In this document: positions 1 to 20,123 of the stretch, piece by piece
Position numbering within the stretch: position 1 is the stretch's first letter
How the letters are laid out: each line of letters begins with the position of its first letter
Virus record (IMG/VR): IMGVR_UViG_3300040751_002983
Coordinates: 1-20,890 of that record
DNA length: 20,890 bases
DNA from: a virus
Direction: 5' to 3' (one strand)
Notes under the pieces: generated by a model
Database searches by the model: none
What the model saw: only the letters and a program-made list of their open reading frames with translations
Told to the model about the DNA's origin: nothing
Program-made: the position numbers and the translations under genes

Positions 1-602
1 AGCCACACTTCGTCACTTCTAGTGCGTATTTGCTTCACATATCCAAGATCACTTAGTATTTTCTGTGAAACTTTGACAACTTCAGGTCGTTTACTACTTT
101 TCATTTCTATGTTGATCACTGGGTTGTTGATCGCTAATGTTTCTTGTGATCCTTGGAGCAACAGGTCCTCATACCCGTCAACATCTATCTTGATGAAGTC
201 CACATCGGTCAGTTCATAACTGTCAAGGGTTTTTATTTTAATATCGCCTGGTGCCCTTTGCAATTTTTGATTTAGCGGTTGTGCAAACTTGGCTGTTGAT
301 TCTGTGTCTCCGAGACCCACTTGATGTAGGATTGCGTTCTTGTCTGAAGGTATATTCTTATTCCAACATTCTACGAACACAGGATTTGGTTCGAAGCAGT
401 GAACGTGTTTGAAATCCTGCATGAGATTCCTCGTCCACATACCCACATTGGCTCCTGCATCAACACATGTTCTCCATTGCTTTACATAACTGTATGCAAT
501 TTTACGTAATGGTCCTTGACCATCGCCCTCGTCTTTAAGGAATGTTGGTTCGGTGTGTACGCCTTTGTATGCTACCCAGAAGTCTCTGCCTGTTGGATAC
601 AT
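1..602 (-). CDS. FkbM-family SAM methyltransferase, 3' end cut by window edge
   Basis: Translating the minus strand from the ATG at 602-600 gives 200 residues, open to the left edge. The SAM-binding motif VDAGANVG is at residues 47-54, the acidic ribose-binding loop FEPNP at 70-74, and the FkbM signature DFIKIDVDGYE at 135-145. The family transfers methyl groups from S-adenosylmethionine to hydroxyls of sugars or lipids, and is common in glycan loci and in marine phages. The start overlaps the stop of the preceding cysteine-rich gene (TAATG), so it is the last visible gene of the operon that starts near 1394. Only the C-terminal tail is missing. The family call is firm; the substrate is unknown. 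Confidence 0.88.
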   Translation of the reverse strand, partial: MYPTGRDFWVAYKGVHTEPTFLKDEGDGQGPLRKIAYSYVKQWRTCVDAGANVGMWTRNLMQDFKHVHCFEPNPVFVECWNKNIPSDKNAILHQVGLGDTESTAKFAQPLNQKLQRAPGDIKIKTLDSYELTDVDFIKIDVDGYEDLLLQGSQETLAINNPVINIEMKSSKRPEVVKVSQKILSDLGYVKQIRTRSDEVW

Positions 603-718
603 TATTCTTCACACTCTTTACACGCACAGTCTGGGCAGTCCCTACATTCTGTACAAGAACTTCCGCAGTGCTGTTCGCAACCACAAAGTTCACAAATATA
701 CTTGATAAGATTATCCAT
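602..718 (-). CDS. Cysteine-rich mini-protein 2 (metallothionein-like), 38 aa
   Basis: A 38-residue frame with ten cysteines at positions 9, 12, 14, 18, 22, 25, 28, 31, 33 and 36, and His17 just before the fourth. The spacing CxxCxCxxxCxxxCxxCxxCxxCxCxxC is identical to that of the neighbouring gene at 711-833, so the two are tandem duplicates. Ten thiols in 28 residues suggest a metal-binding protein (zinc, copper or iron) or a tightly disulfide-bonded one; no named family is recognised. The ATG at 718 overlaps the end of the upstream gene by 8 bases, and the stop overlaps the methyltransferase start. The same frame can be read further upstream from 805, but that part is the out-of-frame shadow of the first copy, so the 718 start is chosen. 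Confidence 0.75.
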   Translation of the reverse strand: MDNLIKYICELCGCEQHCGSSCTECRDCPDCACKECEE

Positions 719-833
719 CTGGTGCGAACCTTTCAAGGCACTTGTTGCAGTCGCACACGTCACAGTTTTCACAGTTCTTACACCCTTTGTCGCAGTGTGG
801 ATCACAATTACATCTATAACATTTTTCCCTCAT
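711..833 (-). CDS. Cysteine-rich mini-protein 1 (metallothionein-like), 40 aa
   Basis: A 40-residue frame starting with the ATG directly after the stop codon of the gene at 834-1394. Cysteines are at 5, 8, 10, 14, 18, 21, 24, 27, 29 and 32, with His13 before the fourth, and a short tail ends in APDG. The cysteine spacing is the same as in the downstream copy, although the residues between the cysteines mostly differ. That conservation argues that both copies are translated and selected for metal binding or disulfide structure. The function is unknown. Metal sequestration, a zinc-knuckle binding protein or a structural mini-protein are all possible. It is co-transcribed with the gene at 834-1394 and with the FkbM methyltransferase. 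Confidence 0.75.
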   Translation of the reverse strand: MREKCYRCNCDPHCDKGCKNCENCDVCDCNKCLERFAPDG

Positions 834-1394
834 CTAAAGATACTTGAACTTCCTGTGTAAATCGGTGTTGGGCAATTTATTCTGCAACATCTGTTTCAAA
901 CTTGCCAGCGTCTTTGCTTTTGTTTTGGAATCTAGTTTGGATAGGTTTGCTATTGCCCTCCTCACGTTTCTGTAATTGGCATCCGTGATGTTCAAGGCCC
1001 TTTCCAGTTGCGTGAGATTCCTGAAGTGATCTCCCCAGGTTCTCATGTATCTGCGTAGTGCCATAACAGGTACCGGTTGCCTCTGCCTCATGGCTTGTGC
1101 TTGATTTTTGTTCTTAAGTTTCTTGGTGATCTCAGGATCTCCTGATACGATGGCCAGCATATTGGCCAAGTCGTTGTTGATCATCCTGACCTGGTCGAAC
1201 GTGCCCTTTGCCATTGTTTGATCCGCGTATGCTTTCACGAACGGCATTGTTTCCTTGCTCTGGCTCAGCCAAGACAGTGCGAGAAAACTGAGGTAAATTC
1301 TTTCTGTGACTTCAGGGAAGGTGAACCTTTGTAAGTCACTAAAACGCCTTATGACCTTGCCCTCAGATACATACTTTAAAAATAGTGTTAACAT
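834..1394 (-). CDS. Conserved-looking phage protein of unknown function, 186 aa
   Basis: Mostly alpha-helical, basic, with no membrane segment and no catalytic motif I recognise. The middle is rich in Gln and Arg (KNKNQAQAMRQRQP around residues 95-108), and the C-terminal half repeats Lys/Leu-rich helices. An in-frame ATG also exists at 1400, but it lies inside the late-promoter box TATAAATA. The ATG at 1394, five bases after that box, matches the promoter-to-start geometry seen elsewhere in the window and is preferred. It heads an operon with two cysteine-rich mini-genes and a methyltransferase, all contiguous or overlapping. The late promoter suggests a role in virion assembly or lysis rather than early takeover. 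Function not assigned. Confidence 0.7.
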   Translation of the reverse strand: MLTLFLKYVSEGKVIRRFSDLQRFTFPEVTERIYLSFLALSWLSQSKETMPFVKAYADQTMAKGTFDQVRMINNDLANMLAIVSGDPEITKKLKNKNQAQAMRQRQPVPVMALRRYMRTWGDHFRNLTQLERALNITDANYRNVRRAIANLSKLDSKTKAKTLASLKQMLQNKLPNTDLHRKFKYL

Positions 1395-1399
1395 ACACA

Positions 1400-1407
1400 T
1401 ATTTATA
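1400..1407 (-). promoter_or_regulatory. T4-type late promoter box TATAAATA
   Basis: The minus strand reads TATAAATA exactly, followed by five bases and then the ATG at 1394. This is the T4 late consensus recognised by gp55-directed polymerase, and it is placed right before a gene. Transcription would begin near the start codon, so the message may be leaderless. Confidence 0.7.
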
Positions 1408-4074: not shown

Positions 4075-4782
4075 CTACGATCTAATGCTTTCTTTGTAAC
4101 GTAACAGGTATTTTTCTAGTATTCTGTACTGTGCTGGTGCGTGGTGTATGTTGTAATCAATTTTTTCTTTGTTTTCAAGGGAGTTCCACATATACCTGTT
4201 GCCACAGAAATTGAATAAATCAAGGACTTTTTTGTTTTCCTCTAACAACTTTAACTTTTCAAATCCTTTGTAGTCGCTCAGATGTACTTTGTCGAACTCA
4301 TTACACATATCAAACATAAGATAGTCTACCTTGTGGGCGTCTAGGAAACCACTGAGCAGTACCGCTTCGGTGAACAACTTGTCCCAGAAGCCTCTGATGG
4401 TCGGAGATATGCCATTGAAGTACTCTATCAGTTTTTTCAGTTTGTCCTTGTCAACGTCTGGATCAACTTTCCTAACAGTTTCTTCTTTGGGGTCGGACTC
4501 TAGGTATTCTGCCCTCTGTATGGGAAACCATAACCCGTCTATCTGATCGTCAATCGCACTCACCGTCCACTCCCATCTGGTGTAAAATGTTATAGGGATC
4601 ACTACGAAATGTGGATAACCGTTCTGTGCTATCCATTCCACTGTGGACCTACAAGTCCTATGGAAACTGGTTCCAACTTTTGAAATATTCACATAGTCAT
4701 CACACCCCAGAGATTCTATGAATTCAGTGCTGGGTGTCCAACTATTGCCAAAACTACAACCGTTTATGAGCAATCTCTTCAT
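4075..4782 (-). CDS. SGNH/GDSL-like hydrolase, 235 aa (copy 1)
   Basis: SGNH-fold signs: block I as NGCSFGNSW with the candidate nucleophile Ser10, a glycine block SKVGTS at about 34-39, and a C-terminal HHAPAQY at about 213-219 that supplies the catalytic His in the usual H-x-x-P layout. SGNH enzymes cleave or form esters, often acetyl groups on polysaccharides. The middle (residues 75-150) holds a charged insertion without a recognised motif. Its start overlaps the stop of the upstream cysteine hydrolase gene (ATGA), and it is the last gene of the long minus-strand chain. The canonical Asp before the His is not clear, so activity is uncertain. Two more SGNH-like genes are at 6111-6860 and 11108-11764. 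Confidence 0.65.
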   Translation of the reverse strand: MKRLLINGCSFGNSWTPSTEFIESLGCDDYVNISKVGTSFHRTCRSTVEWIAQNGYPHFVVIPITFYTRWEWTVSAIDDQIDGLWFPIQRAEYLESDPKEETVRKVDPDVDKDKLKKLIEYFNGISPTIRGFWDKLFTEAVLLSGFLDAHKVDYLMFDMCNEFDKVHLSDYKGFEKLKLLEENKKVLDLFNFCGNRYMWNSLENKEKIDYNIHHAPAQYRILEKYLLRYKESIRS

Positions 4783-5459
4783 TGTTTGTCTGCCTCGAAT
4801 GTTCTGGTCACATCAACAGTTGACCTTACTTTGCCAAAGTATTTACTGAAAGTGCTCAGACAGGCGTCGTGTAGATCTTTGTGAGTGGTTGAACAGGCAT
4901 CGTCAATTATTGTAACCGAATATCCCCTGTCTGCGGCTTCACGTGCTGTTGACTCCACGCAGACGTTTGTTGACACTCCTGTGAAGTAAAGATGTTCCAC
5001 ATTTATATCTTTGAGCAGTTGTTCTATGTCTGTTGAAGCGAATGCTCCCATTGATGTTTTTCTAAGAATGTGTTCTCCGTCAATTGGTTTGAGCTCGTCT
5101 ATGATACTGTGTGCAGGTCCCCCCACATAGTTGCCAACCTCCTTGTAAAATTCACGCATGTGACTTGGAATATCTCCGCAGTCCTCCGTGCTTGATCCGG
5201 CTGTGAGATAAATGACCTTGCCTCCCATGTCACGCATCAGTTTCAATAAGGACTTGATATTAGGAATCACGACTTCCTTGATCCTTTGGAATCTCCAATC
5301 AGTGATCGTATTGCCTTCCGCCTGCATTTTTTTGGCCAGTGGACCTTGGTGATGTCCGGTTGCGTACTGCATATCAACGACGACCAAGGCCGATTTGCTT
5401 ATATCCGCCCGCACCTCGATGTTCAGTTGTTTAGAATAGTCTTCGACTACAGCACTCAT
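4779..5459 (-). CDS. Isochorismatase-fold cysteine hydrolase, 226 aa
   Basis: The catalytic triad of the family is visible: Asp29 in VVVDMQ, Lys134 in ILRKTSMGAF, and the nucleophile Cys167 in GVSTNVCVESTAREA, followed by the typical IIDDAC segment. Members hydrolyse amide, vinyl-ether or carbamate bonds in small molecules (isochorismate, nicotinamide, N-carbamoyl compounds, ureidoacrylate, biuret). Length and motif order are normal for the family, with an extra loop at about 92-115. The start shares a base with the upstream methyltransferase stop (TAATG), and the stop overlaps the next gene by four bases, so translation is probably coupled. The substrate cannot be read from the sequence. A nitrogen-releasing amidohydrolase is plausible. 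Confidence 0.85.
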   Translation of the reverse strand: MSAVVEDYSKQLNIEVRADISKSALVVVDMQYATGHHQGPLAKKMQAEGNTITDWRFQRIKEVVIPNIKSLLKLMRDMGGKVIYLTAGSSTEDCGDIPSHMREFYKEVGNYVGGPAHSIIDELKPIDGEHILRKTSMGAFASTDIEQLLKDINVEHLYFTGVSTNVCVESTAREAADRGYSVTIIDDACSTTHKDLHDACLSTFSKYFGKVRSTVDVTRTFEADKQ

Positions 5460-7547: not shown

Positions 7548-8118
7548 AAACTTGTATTCCTTTGTCTGCGTAATTATGTAGCCGTCTCTTTGTGTTGGGG
7601 AAACTTATTTCTAGCAACCTACAAAGATCAACATTGTCTTTGGGTTTGTGAATTCTGTCTTTGTTATCTTTGATAAACTGCATAGTGTCTTTGTTCTCTG
7701 ACTGTATGTGATCCCACATACGATCTAGGTTCTCATACCACTGATAGTTGGGATATGTTATCGTGAACTCCCCACACAGTTTCCACCATTCCAGGCACTC
7801 GAAGTCATTCCTGTACACCATCACGATCGGATGGCCCTTATCTTTGAGTTCATTCAATCTGTGTGCGAATGTGTGTGATTTTATAATTCTTTTACCTGTG
7901 CCCGAGAAAGGTCCGTCCCAGTCTATGTTCACGAACTCCATTCCCGGATCCCAGTAAGCACCGATGTGCATTAGATGTTTATTGCCAGGGGTGTCAGCAT
8001 CGTGCCAGTAGGTTCTTGCCTCAGAATAGTCTGTGTGATCTATGTCATCACTCCAGTAGATATTCTTGACCACACTACTCCACTTTGATCCTGGTGCCCC
8101 TGTAAACAATATGTACAT
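7534..8118 (-). CDS. Sulfotransferase-like P-loop protein, 194 aa
   Basis: The N-terminus reads MYILFTGAPGSKWSSV, which fits the PAPS-binding loop of sulfotransferases (GxxRSGTT-like, Lys12). It is followed by IIKSHTF at about 78-84 and VMVYRNDFECLEWW at about 98-111, the usual site of the 3'-phosphate-binding Arg. The protein is shorter than typical sulfotransferases (250-300 residues), and the C-terminal half has lost clear motifs, so it could instead be a kinase-like or non-catalytic P-loop protein. Its ATG shares a base with the tctC stop (TAATG). A sulfotransferase in this chain would suggest modification of a glycan or lipid. Confidence 0.55.
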   Translation of the reverse strand: MYILFTGAPGSKWSSVVKNIYWSDDIDHTDYSEARTYWHDADTPGNKHLMHIGAYWDPGMEFVNIDWDGPFSGTGKRIIKSHTFAHRLNELKDKGHPIVMVYRNDFECLEWWKLCGEFTITYPNYQWYENLDRMWDHIQSENKDTMQFIKDNKDRIHKPKDNVDLCRLLEISFPNTKRRLHNYADKGIQVYVYK

Positions 8119-9164
8119 TATTTGGTCAACTCTTCCTTGTAGATGGCATTGTAACCCAACTGATTCTTTCCAAAATCAGATAGTGTCTTCAATGCACCCG
8201 GTGTGATGAATGACTTCAGTGTTCTAACTGCGGCGTCACCTTCCTCACCTGTTCTCCACTCGTACTTGCCAACCTTCTTCTCGATTGCGGCAACTGACTC
8301 TGGATCCTTGATCATCTTGTCAAGTGCGGCAACAAGTTTAGCCTTGTTGGGATTGCCCTTGTTCACCCAAAACGCTTTCTGTAAAGCATCTCTCCAACTC
8401 TTCACAAGTTTGTAAGCATCGTAGAAGTCACCACTTGGTGCAACACCGTGCATTTTTTCAAACAGTTCTTCGAAAGTTGGCTCGGTGAAGTTTGGATCTT
8501 TATCGTGTCCGCCCGTCTTGACGTTTAGTAGTCCATGATGGAACCAAGTGTAGGCGTCGCCTTTCTTGATCACCGGCATCACGTGTTTCTTGTATGCGGC
8601 AGGGTTCTCCCTGGTTGCATTCAAGTCACCTCTGATGAACGCAAGTCTCCTCTCAGAGCCTCTCATTCCTTTCACCCATACTATCTTGTCTTCGAATGTT
8701 TTAACAGGATCATTGTTTGGTCCTGCAAGTAACATAACGATAGCCATGATCTCTGGAGTCATACCAGATCCTGATGGAAACTGTATCGGTCCATTTGTCG
8801 TATCCGCTTTGTTCCTAGCACCCACAATGATGTTTAGGTTCATGTGTCCAACAGACTCCCAATCGAAGTAATTGTAATCAACAGGCTCTGTAAGATATGA
8901 TATACCATTACCTCCGTGTGATACAAGTATCGTCTTGTCATCGAACCTCAGTTTGTTTTGGAACTCGTTTGGTCCCAGTTGGTCTCTCGCACCTGGCTTG
9001 TAGATAAGATTGATCTTCTCTCCCAGGTGTTTCTCCCATTCCGCTACAACTATCTGTGCCCACACAGAAGTTCCACCAGATGGTTTTTGTGGCACGATCA
9101 AGTTGTAATCTGCCAAGGCTGTTGTTGTCATCAACACCAAAGCCATTATTGTTTTCTTAAGCAT
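8118..9164 (-). CDS. tctC: TTT-family periplasmic substrate-binding protein (TctC/Bug)
   Basis: 348 residues. A Sec signal peptide fills residues 1-18 (positive MLKK start, hydrophobic core, ALA before DYN). The mature part begins with a beta strand and the PSGGTSVWAQ loop, and LIYKPGARDQLGPN at about 54-67 corresponds to the KPGAGG ligand loop of Bug proteins. These bind organic acids (citrate, other tricarboxylates, dicarboxylates, aromatic acids) in the periplasm and hand them to TctA. It overlaps the upstream tctA by 8 bases. A TctB-like small membrane subunit, normally part of the complex, is not seen between or next to these genes. The protein seems intact; whether it works in the host periplasm depends on a host TctB. 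Confidence 0.82.
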   Translation of the reverse strand: MLKKTIMALVLMTTTALADYNLIVPQKPSGGTSVWAQIVVAEWEKHLGEKINLIYKPGARDQLGPNEFQNKLRFDDKTILVSHGGNGISYLTEPVDYNYFDWESVGHMNLNIIVGARNKADTTNGPIQFPSGSGMTPEIMAIVMLLAGPNNDPVKTFEDKIVWVKGMRGSERRLAFIRGDLNATRENPAAYKKHVMPVIKKGDAYTWFHHGLLNVKTGGHDKDPNFTEPTFEELFEKMHGVAPSGDFYDAYKLVKSWRDALQKAFWVNKGNPNKAKLVAALDKMIKDPESVAAIEKKVGKYEWRTGEEGDAAVRTLKSFITPGALKTLSDFGKNQLGYNAIYKEELTK

Positions 9165-10593
9165 AGTCTAATCGACTCCTCTTTGTTATTCCCCAATACA
9201 ATAATGCAAATACACAAATCATTATGCCAATGAAGATCGGTCTAGTGATCAGATCGTCTACCGTATGCAAGGATGTTAGTTGATAAGTGAGGTTGTAAAT
9301 CCTGTCACTCAATATGTACCCAATCAGCAGTGCTGGCCTGCTGATTTGGAATTTTTTACACAGCACCCCGAATATCGAGAATGCTGTCAGTACCGCTAGG
9401 TCTTCCCACCCGCCTGTGTACTGTAAGGTTGCCCAAACAATCACGGCAAGAATGAAAGGGAAATAGTAAACGTATGGAATACGTGTCACCCACCCTGCGA
9501 AATATGCCAGTCCATAACATAAGACAGCAGTGATGATCGTTCCAAGTAGGAACGCATAGGTCATGCTGTCAAATAATCTGTCGTCATAGAATGTATCGGG
9601 TGATCCCAGGTCAATGCCCAGGTATAGAAACAGTCCCATCAGTATCGCGGCGAAACTCGCACCAGGGATACCAAACAAGACTGTTGGAATGAATGACGAG
9701 GCCTTCTGTGCGTTGTTGGCCCCCTCGGCACCCACGACTCCCCTTACATTACCATCACCAAACTTCTCTTTGGGATTGGCCGCGACCGTGGCACCGTAAG
9801 CCAACCAGTCTGCCATCGCACCTCCCAAGCCTGGAAGTAGTCCTATGAAGGAACCTATTGCTCCTCCCCTCACACTGTCCTTCCAACATCTGACGGTATC
9901 TTTCACTCCTTGTTTTAGATCTTGCCAACTGCCGTGTTCTGCTTTTATAGTTGTGGTCTTCTTCCTGTTGAACCATCCGTCCCACAGTTCAGGTATTGCG
10001 AAAAGTCCTGCCATGTAAGGTAAAATCTGTACACCGTCTTCCAGGTAACGCCAACCCATTGTGAATCTCGGCACGTTGTTCACGTCCACACCAACTAGTC
10101 CTATGGTAACACCTAAAACTATTGCGAGAACACTTCTGACATATTTCCTAGTGGATACAAATCCCACAGTGACAAACGCCAACAGCACCAATGCCCACAG
10201 TTCGGGTATGCCCATGTACATTACAACTTTGGTGTACCAAGGTAAGAAAAGGAATGTTAGCGATCCCCAAAACAGACCATTACAAGTCGACGAAGTGATC
10301 GCGGCACTCAATGCTCTAGTGGCTTCTCCGTTCTTGGCCATTGGAAAACCATCCACCATTGTGGCCGCCGCAGAATTGGCTCCCGGTATGCCCAACAGCA
10401 CACCTGCAAATGAATCACCGGTTGTTGATGAAGCGACAACTGCCACACAGAATATCACGCCCAGGTAGGGATCTCCCACGAAGTAAGGCATGACTCCAAA
10501 TAGTGTGATTAGACCTGTTGTTGCTCCCGCGGCTGGTATTAGGCCAATGATCAAGCCGTAAACAATACCTGCCATTAATATAGCAAGTTCCAT
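9157..10593 (-). CDS. tctA: TTT-family large membrane permease TctA
   Basis: 478 residues, with about eleven hydrophobic segments. Both family signatures are present: the N-terminal half has GLIPAAGATTG, then PGANSAAATMVDGFPMAKNG, and the C-terminal half repeats GLLPGLGGAMADW and EGANNAQKASSFIP followed by FGIPGAS. These inverted-repeat motifs form the transport core. TctA, with TctB and a TctC binding protein, imports organic acids with cations. Length is slightly below the usual ~500. It is the first gene of the minus-strand chain. The 90 bases before it hold an AAAGGAAG sequence 32-25 bases before the ATG but no NNTAAATA box, so it may be expressed early or from a host-type promoter. Confidence 0.93.
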   Translation of the reverse strand: MELAILMAGIVYGLIIGLIPAAGATTGLITLFGVMPYFVGDPYLGVIFCVAVVASSTTGDSFAGVLLGIPGANSAAATMVDGFPMAKNGEATRALSAAITSSTCNGLFWGSLTFLFLPWYTKVVMYMGIPELWALVLLAFVTVGFVSTRKYVRSVLAIVLGVTIGLVGVDVNNVPRFTMGWRYLEDGVQILPYMAGLFAIPELWDGWFNRKKTTTIKAEHGSWQDLKQGVKDTVRCWKDSVRGGAIGSFIGLLPGLGGAMADWLAYGATVAANPKEKFGDGNVRGVVGAEGANNAQKASSFIPTVLFGIPGASFAAILMGLFLYLGIDLGSPDTFYDDRLFDSMTYAFLLGTIITAVLCYGLAYFAGWVTRIPYVYYFPFILAVIVWATLQYTGGWEDLAVLTAFSIFGVLCKKFQISRPALLIGYILSDRIYNLTYQLTSLHTVDDLITRPIFIGIMICVFALLYWGITKRSRLDYA

Positions 10594-20115: not shown

Positions 20116-20123
20116 TATAAATA
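20116..20123 (+). promoter_or_regulatory. T4-type late promoter box TATAAATA
   Basis: Exact consensus, five bases before the ATG at 20129; the same spacing as at 1400-1407 and 13076-13083. Confidence 0.75.

Follow-up and report, generated by a model that had tools for sequence, protein, structure and literature searches.

Two short, cysteine-rich open reading frames (ORFs) in a 20,890-base virus contig are real genes that, judging from sequence comparisons, evolve under purifying selection on the encoded proteins, and they are members of a genuine, previously unnamed family found in many marine viruses of bacteria. The contig analyzed here (hereinafter, the window) is an entire IMG/VR virus record; among isolates, its DUF6267 gene is closest to those of Pelagibacter phage HTVC008M and the Kyanoviridae cyanophages (about 40% protein identity), which points to a T4-like marine phage as the source. 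We predict, with a probability of roughly 0.55, that the products of the two ORFs, A and B, are cytoplasmic, metallothionein-like mini-proteins that are made late in infection and buffer or donate metal. The family is new, but its kind of chemistry is known: examples of metal-thiolate proteins come from all parts of cellular life. The relevant features of the window, in the order of transcription, are as follows.

1400..1407, minus strand: T4-type late promoter box, TATAAATA, 5 nt before the ATG at 1394
834..1394, minus strand: c12, the upstream gene of the operon and a conserved immediate upstream neighbor; the start is most likely the ATG at 1394
711..833, minus strand: ORF A, 40 amino acids (aa), ten Cys and a His, translation MREKCYRCNCDPHCDKGCKNCENCDVCDCNKCLERFAPDG
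602..718, minus strand: ORF B, 38 aa, ten Cys and a His, translation MDNLIKYICELCGCEQHCGSSCTECRDCPDCACKECEE
3..602, minus strand, running off the window: FkbM-type methyltransferase, the downstream gene (PF05050, E = 2.9e-12; phrog_8156)

The first-pass annotation of this DNA described A and B as tandem ORFs of 38–40 residues with identical cysteine spacing and a His before the fourth Cys, with most of the residues between the cysteines differing between the two copies. Both observations are borne out on re-reading the two frames, which have in common the pattern C-x2-C-x-C-x2-H-C-x3-C-x2-C-x2-C-x2-C-x-C-x2-C and, apart from these 11 ligand columns, are identical only at Met1 and one Glu. The window contains exactly two instances of the 11-codon pattern, and 100 dinucleotide shuffles yielded none, even when 3 mismatches were tolerated. 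Each ORF represents a subfamily with its own signature, C[HY]RCxCxxHC...CDxCDCxxCLxRFxxDG for A and [IV]xYICExCGCEQHCxxSCTECxDCPDCxCKEC for B. Both proteins recur in a second IMG/VR contig (L212), where the upstream ORF is 100% identical.

On the minus strand, the promoter box is followed by c12, A, B and the FkbM-type methyltransferase gene. Overlaps had been reported at every junction, and this holds for A and B (8 nt, ATGGATAA) and for B and the methyltransferase (1 nt, TAATG), but c12 and A merely abut, with 0 nt between the TAG of c12 and the ATG of A. Likewise, the exact late promoter that had been assigned to the operon is present (1407–1400), but directly precedes c12 rather than A. 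The box is kept, followed by the c12 ATG at 5 nt, in 76 of the 80 homologous loci described below, and the co-directional placement of A and B behind it supports late expression. Given the geometry of T4 late promoters, the 5-nt distance from the box to the ATG would place the start codon at about +1, so that leaderless late mRNAs are predicted. Across 383 distinct box sites in the collected loci, the distance from the box to the first long-ORF ATG shows peaks at 5 and 8 nt, and control octamers lack a comparable peak at 5 nt. The window contains a second TATAAATA box (20116–20123, plus strand), which also lies exactly 5 nt before an ATG. For the c12 protein itself, the Pfam search gave no match and the PHROG search no significant match.

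Disrupted frames or missing cysteines in the homologous loci had been named as the outcome that would speak against translated proteins. We retrieved 80 homologous viral loci with the c12 protein alone, ignoring cysteine content, and the comparison failed to refute the claim. Cysteine-rich ORFs are present at the junction between c12 and the FkbM gene in 62 loci (one ORF in 40 and two in 22), and 83 of the 84 junction copies retain the complete register of ten Cys and one His, allowing a one-residue insertion of the A type; the sole off-register copy, the B ORF of locus L240, has a shifted N-terminus and extra Cys. In the remaining 18 loci, c12 runs directly into the FkbM gene and the ORFs are cleanly absent, without any remnant (at most 4 of the ten Cys codons in register, on either strand). 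No broken frame was found at this junction among the 80 loci, and the variation consists in the presence or absence of intact genes, not decay, with 0, 1 or 2 copies per genome.

The suggested Ka/Ks comparison between homologues gave 0.06–0.09 in the true frame (dN/dS of 0.085 for A and 0.058 for B) against about 0.9–2.5 in the other frames (0.94–2.45); these are pairwise averages that are phylogenetically non-independent, and the contrast between the frames is large. At the non-ligand columns, dN/dS is 0.25 for A and 0.11 for B, and in all ten Cys columns the codons switch synonymously between TGT and TGC while the residue stays constant. Selection on a translated protein, as originally proposed, is thus upheld by the contrast between frames together with the register at the junctions. 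That these are not genes at all, but cysteine-rich frames that arose by chance or mirror the opposite strand, has practically negligible probability: the ORFs are short and the family libraries do not list them, but this reading is refuted by the dN/dS values, the register, the synteny and the absence of the pattern from the shuffled sequences.

The search of viral metagenome contigs with the cysteine pattern, another of the checks initially suggested, detected real homologues: the ten-Cys codon pattern has at least 120 matches in viral contigs, and the pattern with the His included likewise matches at least 120 viral stretches. Among the matches listed, there are 116 distinct proteins of the A type, the B type and more divergent types. 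Without the His, the pattern also picked up many low-complexity poly-Cys artefacts, but the His was present in all clear homologues. In 257 Gb of cellular genomes, the ten-Cys and His pattern matched 5 times, and only 1 match is genuine, in a contig binned as Betaproteobacteria (L199) that has the same phage synteny; the other 4 (Prevotellaceae, Obscuribacterales) are cysteine-rich readings of low-complexity repeats. Within the reach of these searches, the family is phage-specific. In an alignment of 36 members, none of the columns of the ten Cys and the His varies, and 34 members have exactly the same spacing between the cysteines (x2,x1,x3,x3,x2,x2,x2,x1,x2); of the two others, the L156 type is one residue short between the first two Cys, and the second has one additional residue after HC.

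The statement of the first-pass annotation that no named family has such spacing holds when checked against the profiles of Pfam, NCBIfam, PHROGs and the PDB. Neither A, nor B, nor the family (36 members) has a match in Pfam or NCBIfam, metallothionein profiles included, or a convincing match in the PDB, and A and B have no significant match in PHROGs; 4 of the 36 members touch phrog_24592, an entry without an assigned function, with a best E value of 0.0085. A tblastn search of phage isolates returned no relative of A or B, although the BLAST low-complexity filter probably masks such queries. A match in Melnitz was discarded, being located inside a 462-codon CDS with an E value of 0.8, in a record that as a whole has no profile match. 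The literature searched, with subscription journals mostly outside it, contained no account of a metallothionein family encoded by phages.

The 36 family members are 35–47 aa long, with Cys making up 25% of the whole protein and 36% of the core, the 28 residues of which include on average 0.4 aromatic and 0.8 aliphatic residues. AlphaFold (AF2) predicts a single 7-residue helix and no fold, and a fold search with the predicted structure gave no match, so that the chain would have little but metal to fold around. The metallothionein-like make-up noted at the outset is confirmed by the cysteine content, the CxC and CxxC motifs and the scarcity of hydrophobic residues: the proteins are small, with at least about 20% Cys, few aromatic or hydrophobic residues and no predicted apo fold, as broadly expected of metallothioneins. 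By profile, the family falls outside the bacterial metallothionein family (Metallothio_Pro / SmtA-BmtA), yet probably works like one.

The alpha domain of vertebrate metallothionein (M4Cys11; about 30 residues, 11 ligands and almost no hydrophobic residues) is like A and B in size and ligand count but has no His, a different spacing and an unrelated sequence. Prokaryotic small CPxCG zinc-finger proteins, which typically contain four Cys in two CPxCG motifs and bind one zinc, are equally tiny and missed by gene callers, whereas A and B have ten Cys and a His. As a working analogy, and not as a claim of homology, we use SmtA, with its Zn4Cys9His2 core of 11 ligands (PMC10119931). Like A and B, this cyanobacterial protein is small and cysteine-rich, with CxC and CxxC motifs, a His as an extra ligand and 11 ligands in all; unlike them, it is 56 aa long, differs in the spacing and the order of motifs, is not matched by profile and includes a partly folded zinc-finger part. 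On the SmtA model, the 11 ligands of A or B would wrap a cluster of 3–4 Zn(II) (or Cu(I)/Cd(II)) ions. Late in infection, the proteins would bind metal that is freed from host metalloproteins or enters the damaged cell, buffer it and then hand it on to metalloproteins that the phage makes late; A and B would be two variants that differ in metal affinity or partner.

The usual locus order is DUF6267, an opposite-strand gene, c12, A and/or B, FkbM and a run of small genes that includes a virion-structural PHROG match. Divergent members are found elsewhere: that of L144 lies between a large structural-looking gene, which it follows, and heptose-type sugar genes, those of L141 and L052 are a few genes away from the large terminase, that of L161 is near a DNA polymerase, and that of L136 adjoins a Dps-like gene. 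This occurrence in many unrelated neighborhoods fits a free-standing metal buffer better than a subunit of one enzyme, and the finding that genomes carry none, one or both of the ORFs suggests a function that is useful but dispensable. No metal-transport or metal-responsive gene was recognized adjoining A or B, which, like the lack of similarity to any metallothionein profile, counts against the metal-buffer reading.

Several other features of these loci were observed. In L070, a truncated second B copy (about position 4333, reverse strand) lies downstream of the methyltransferase gene, and the join comprises ~15 identical bases common to the methyltransferase 3' end and the start of B; the extra copy therefore looks like a recombination product or an assembly join, and the former would be a possible route of gain and loss. 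A family of ~134-aa proteins without a PHROG match (c0) is often represented by 1–3 copies per locus shortly downstream of FkbM (L075, L164 and many syntenic loci). In the window, genes on the minus strand at 8118–10593 resemble, by eye, the TctA/TctC-like permease and binding protein of a tripartite tricarboxylate transporter; these have no PHROG match and are candidate auxiliary metabolic genes. The late region of the window also encodes an isochorismatase-family hydrolase (4779–5459, minus strand; PF00857, E = 4e-34).

The main rival to metal buffering, which we consider rather unlikely, is that A and B are zinc-stapled accessory or adaptor proteins, in which structural Zn(II) would hold a small scaffold in shape for binding to a late phage protein, either a tail or baseplate assembly factor or the FkbM methyltransferase. 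The late operon lies amid structural genes, with virion-protein PHROG matches among the neighbors, and FkbM is located directly downstream of A and B in most loci. The contigs L042 and L151 encode an in-frame fusion of an A copy with the FkbM protein, and the point of fusion lacks a start codon; as the two contigs are nearly identical, they represent one event. The residues between the cysteines are conserved in B, and this constraint at the non-ligand positions (dN/dS 0.11) exceeds the needs of a pure metal sponge. However, the clean absence of the ORFs from 18 of the 80 syntenic genomes implies that neither the virion nor FkbM requires them, members of the family occur in contexts without FkbM (L126, L144, L186, L161, L136), and 11 ligands within 28 residues far exceed what a structural zinc site needs.

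Two other readings are less likely than either the metal buffer or the zinc-stapled accessory protein. The high Cys content and the CxxxCxxC stretch within the core could suit a redox or Fe-S mini-protein, with the cysteines carrying an iron-sulphur cluster or serving as a thiol antioxidant or disulphide donor late in infection. This is improbable: the classical ferredoxin motif, CxxCxxCxxxC(P), is absent from the family spacing, the invariant His adjoining a Cys suits Zn or Cu better than redox thiols, and there is no hydrophobic stretch for a signal peptide or a core, which makes both a secreted disulphide-rich peptide and a ferredoxin fold unlikely. Many small phage proteins are anti-host or regulatory peptides, and A and B might similarly be zinc-finger peptides that bind nucleic acid or the host RNA polymerase, a role with which a weak zinc-knuckle profile similarity (E of 0.6 or worse) would agree. 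We regard this, too, as improbable, given that no zinc-finger profile match is significant, the promoter is late rather than early, and there is no consistent basic charge; the net charge across the family ranges from −9 to +4, and this speaks against binding to nucleic acid.

Searching with a less strict pattern, CxxCG[C/H]xxHCGxxC, led to two related families, which we denote 2 and 3, with A and B constituting family 1. In family 3, the layout is that of A and B plus two additional residues between the sixth and seventh Cys, whereas family 2 has a longer middle part and includes hypothetical proteins of HTVC008M (KC465899, 30276–30395) and Mosig (MT647606, Mosig_00110). In profile comparisons, families 1 and 3 score 45.9 and families 3 and 2 score 43.3, against maxima of 20.0 and 20.2, respectively, in 100 column shuffles (96–97% probability for both links). 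The direct score of families 1 and 2, 23.5, does not rise above the shuffled maximum of 26.2, so that A and B are linked to family 2 only transitively, via family 3. The HTVC008M and Mosig proteins resemble A and B in their 40–45 aa scale and CxxCGHxxHCG..CxxCxC arrangement but differ in having a longer Cys-free middle, fewer Cys, an extra His and another locus, on the gp25 side. Family 2 genes (L290–L396, for example, L291 and L303) adjoin the baseplate gene gp25 in 68 of 80 loci, sometimes together with a PAAR gene, and many of the encoded Cys/His mini-proteins end in a conserved FNGA tail. The position beside gp25 is a further point in favor of a zinc-stapled accessory protein, and a metal-binding role of family 2 near the tail tip is a candidate worth testing. 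Together, the fusion of A with the methyltransferase and the gp25-side relatives hint at specific protein partners.

Beyond the metal-buffering role predicted for A and B themselves, we put forward, more tentatively, the possibility that marine T4-like phages own a dedicated metallothionein system. This would be a virus-specific superfamily of late-expressed mini-proteins with multi-metal clusters, including the gp25-side relatives in pelagiphages, that captures zinc or copper as the host dies and uses it for loading phage metalloproteins or for protecting late virion production. The presence of distant relatives in cultured pelagiphages makes this idea testable. If such a family, widespread and specific to viruses, does occupy a fixed place in late operons, phages would be managing host metal late in infection, with consequences for the annotation of small ORFs and for the cycling of zinc and copper in the sea.
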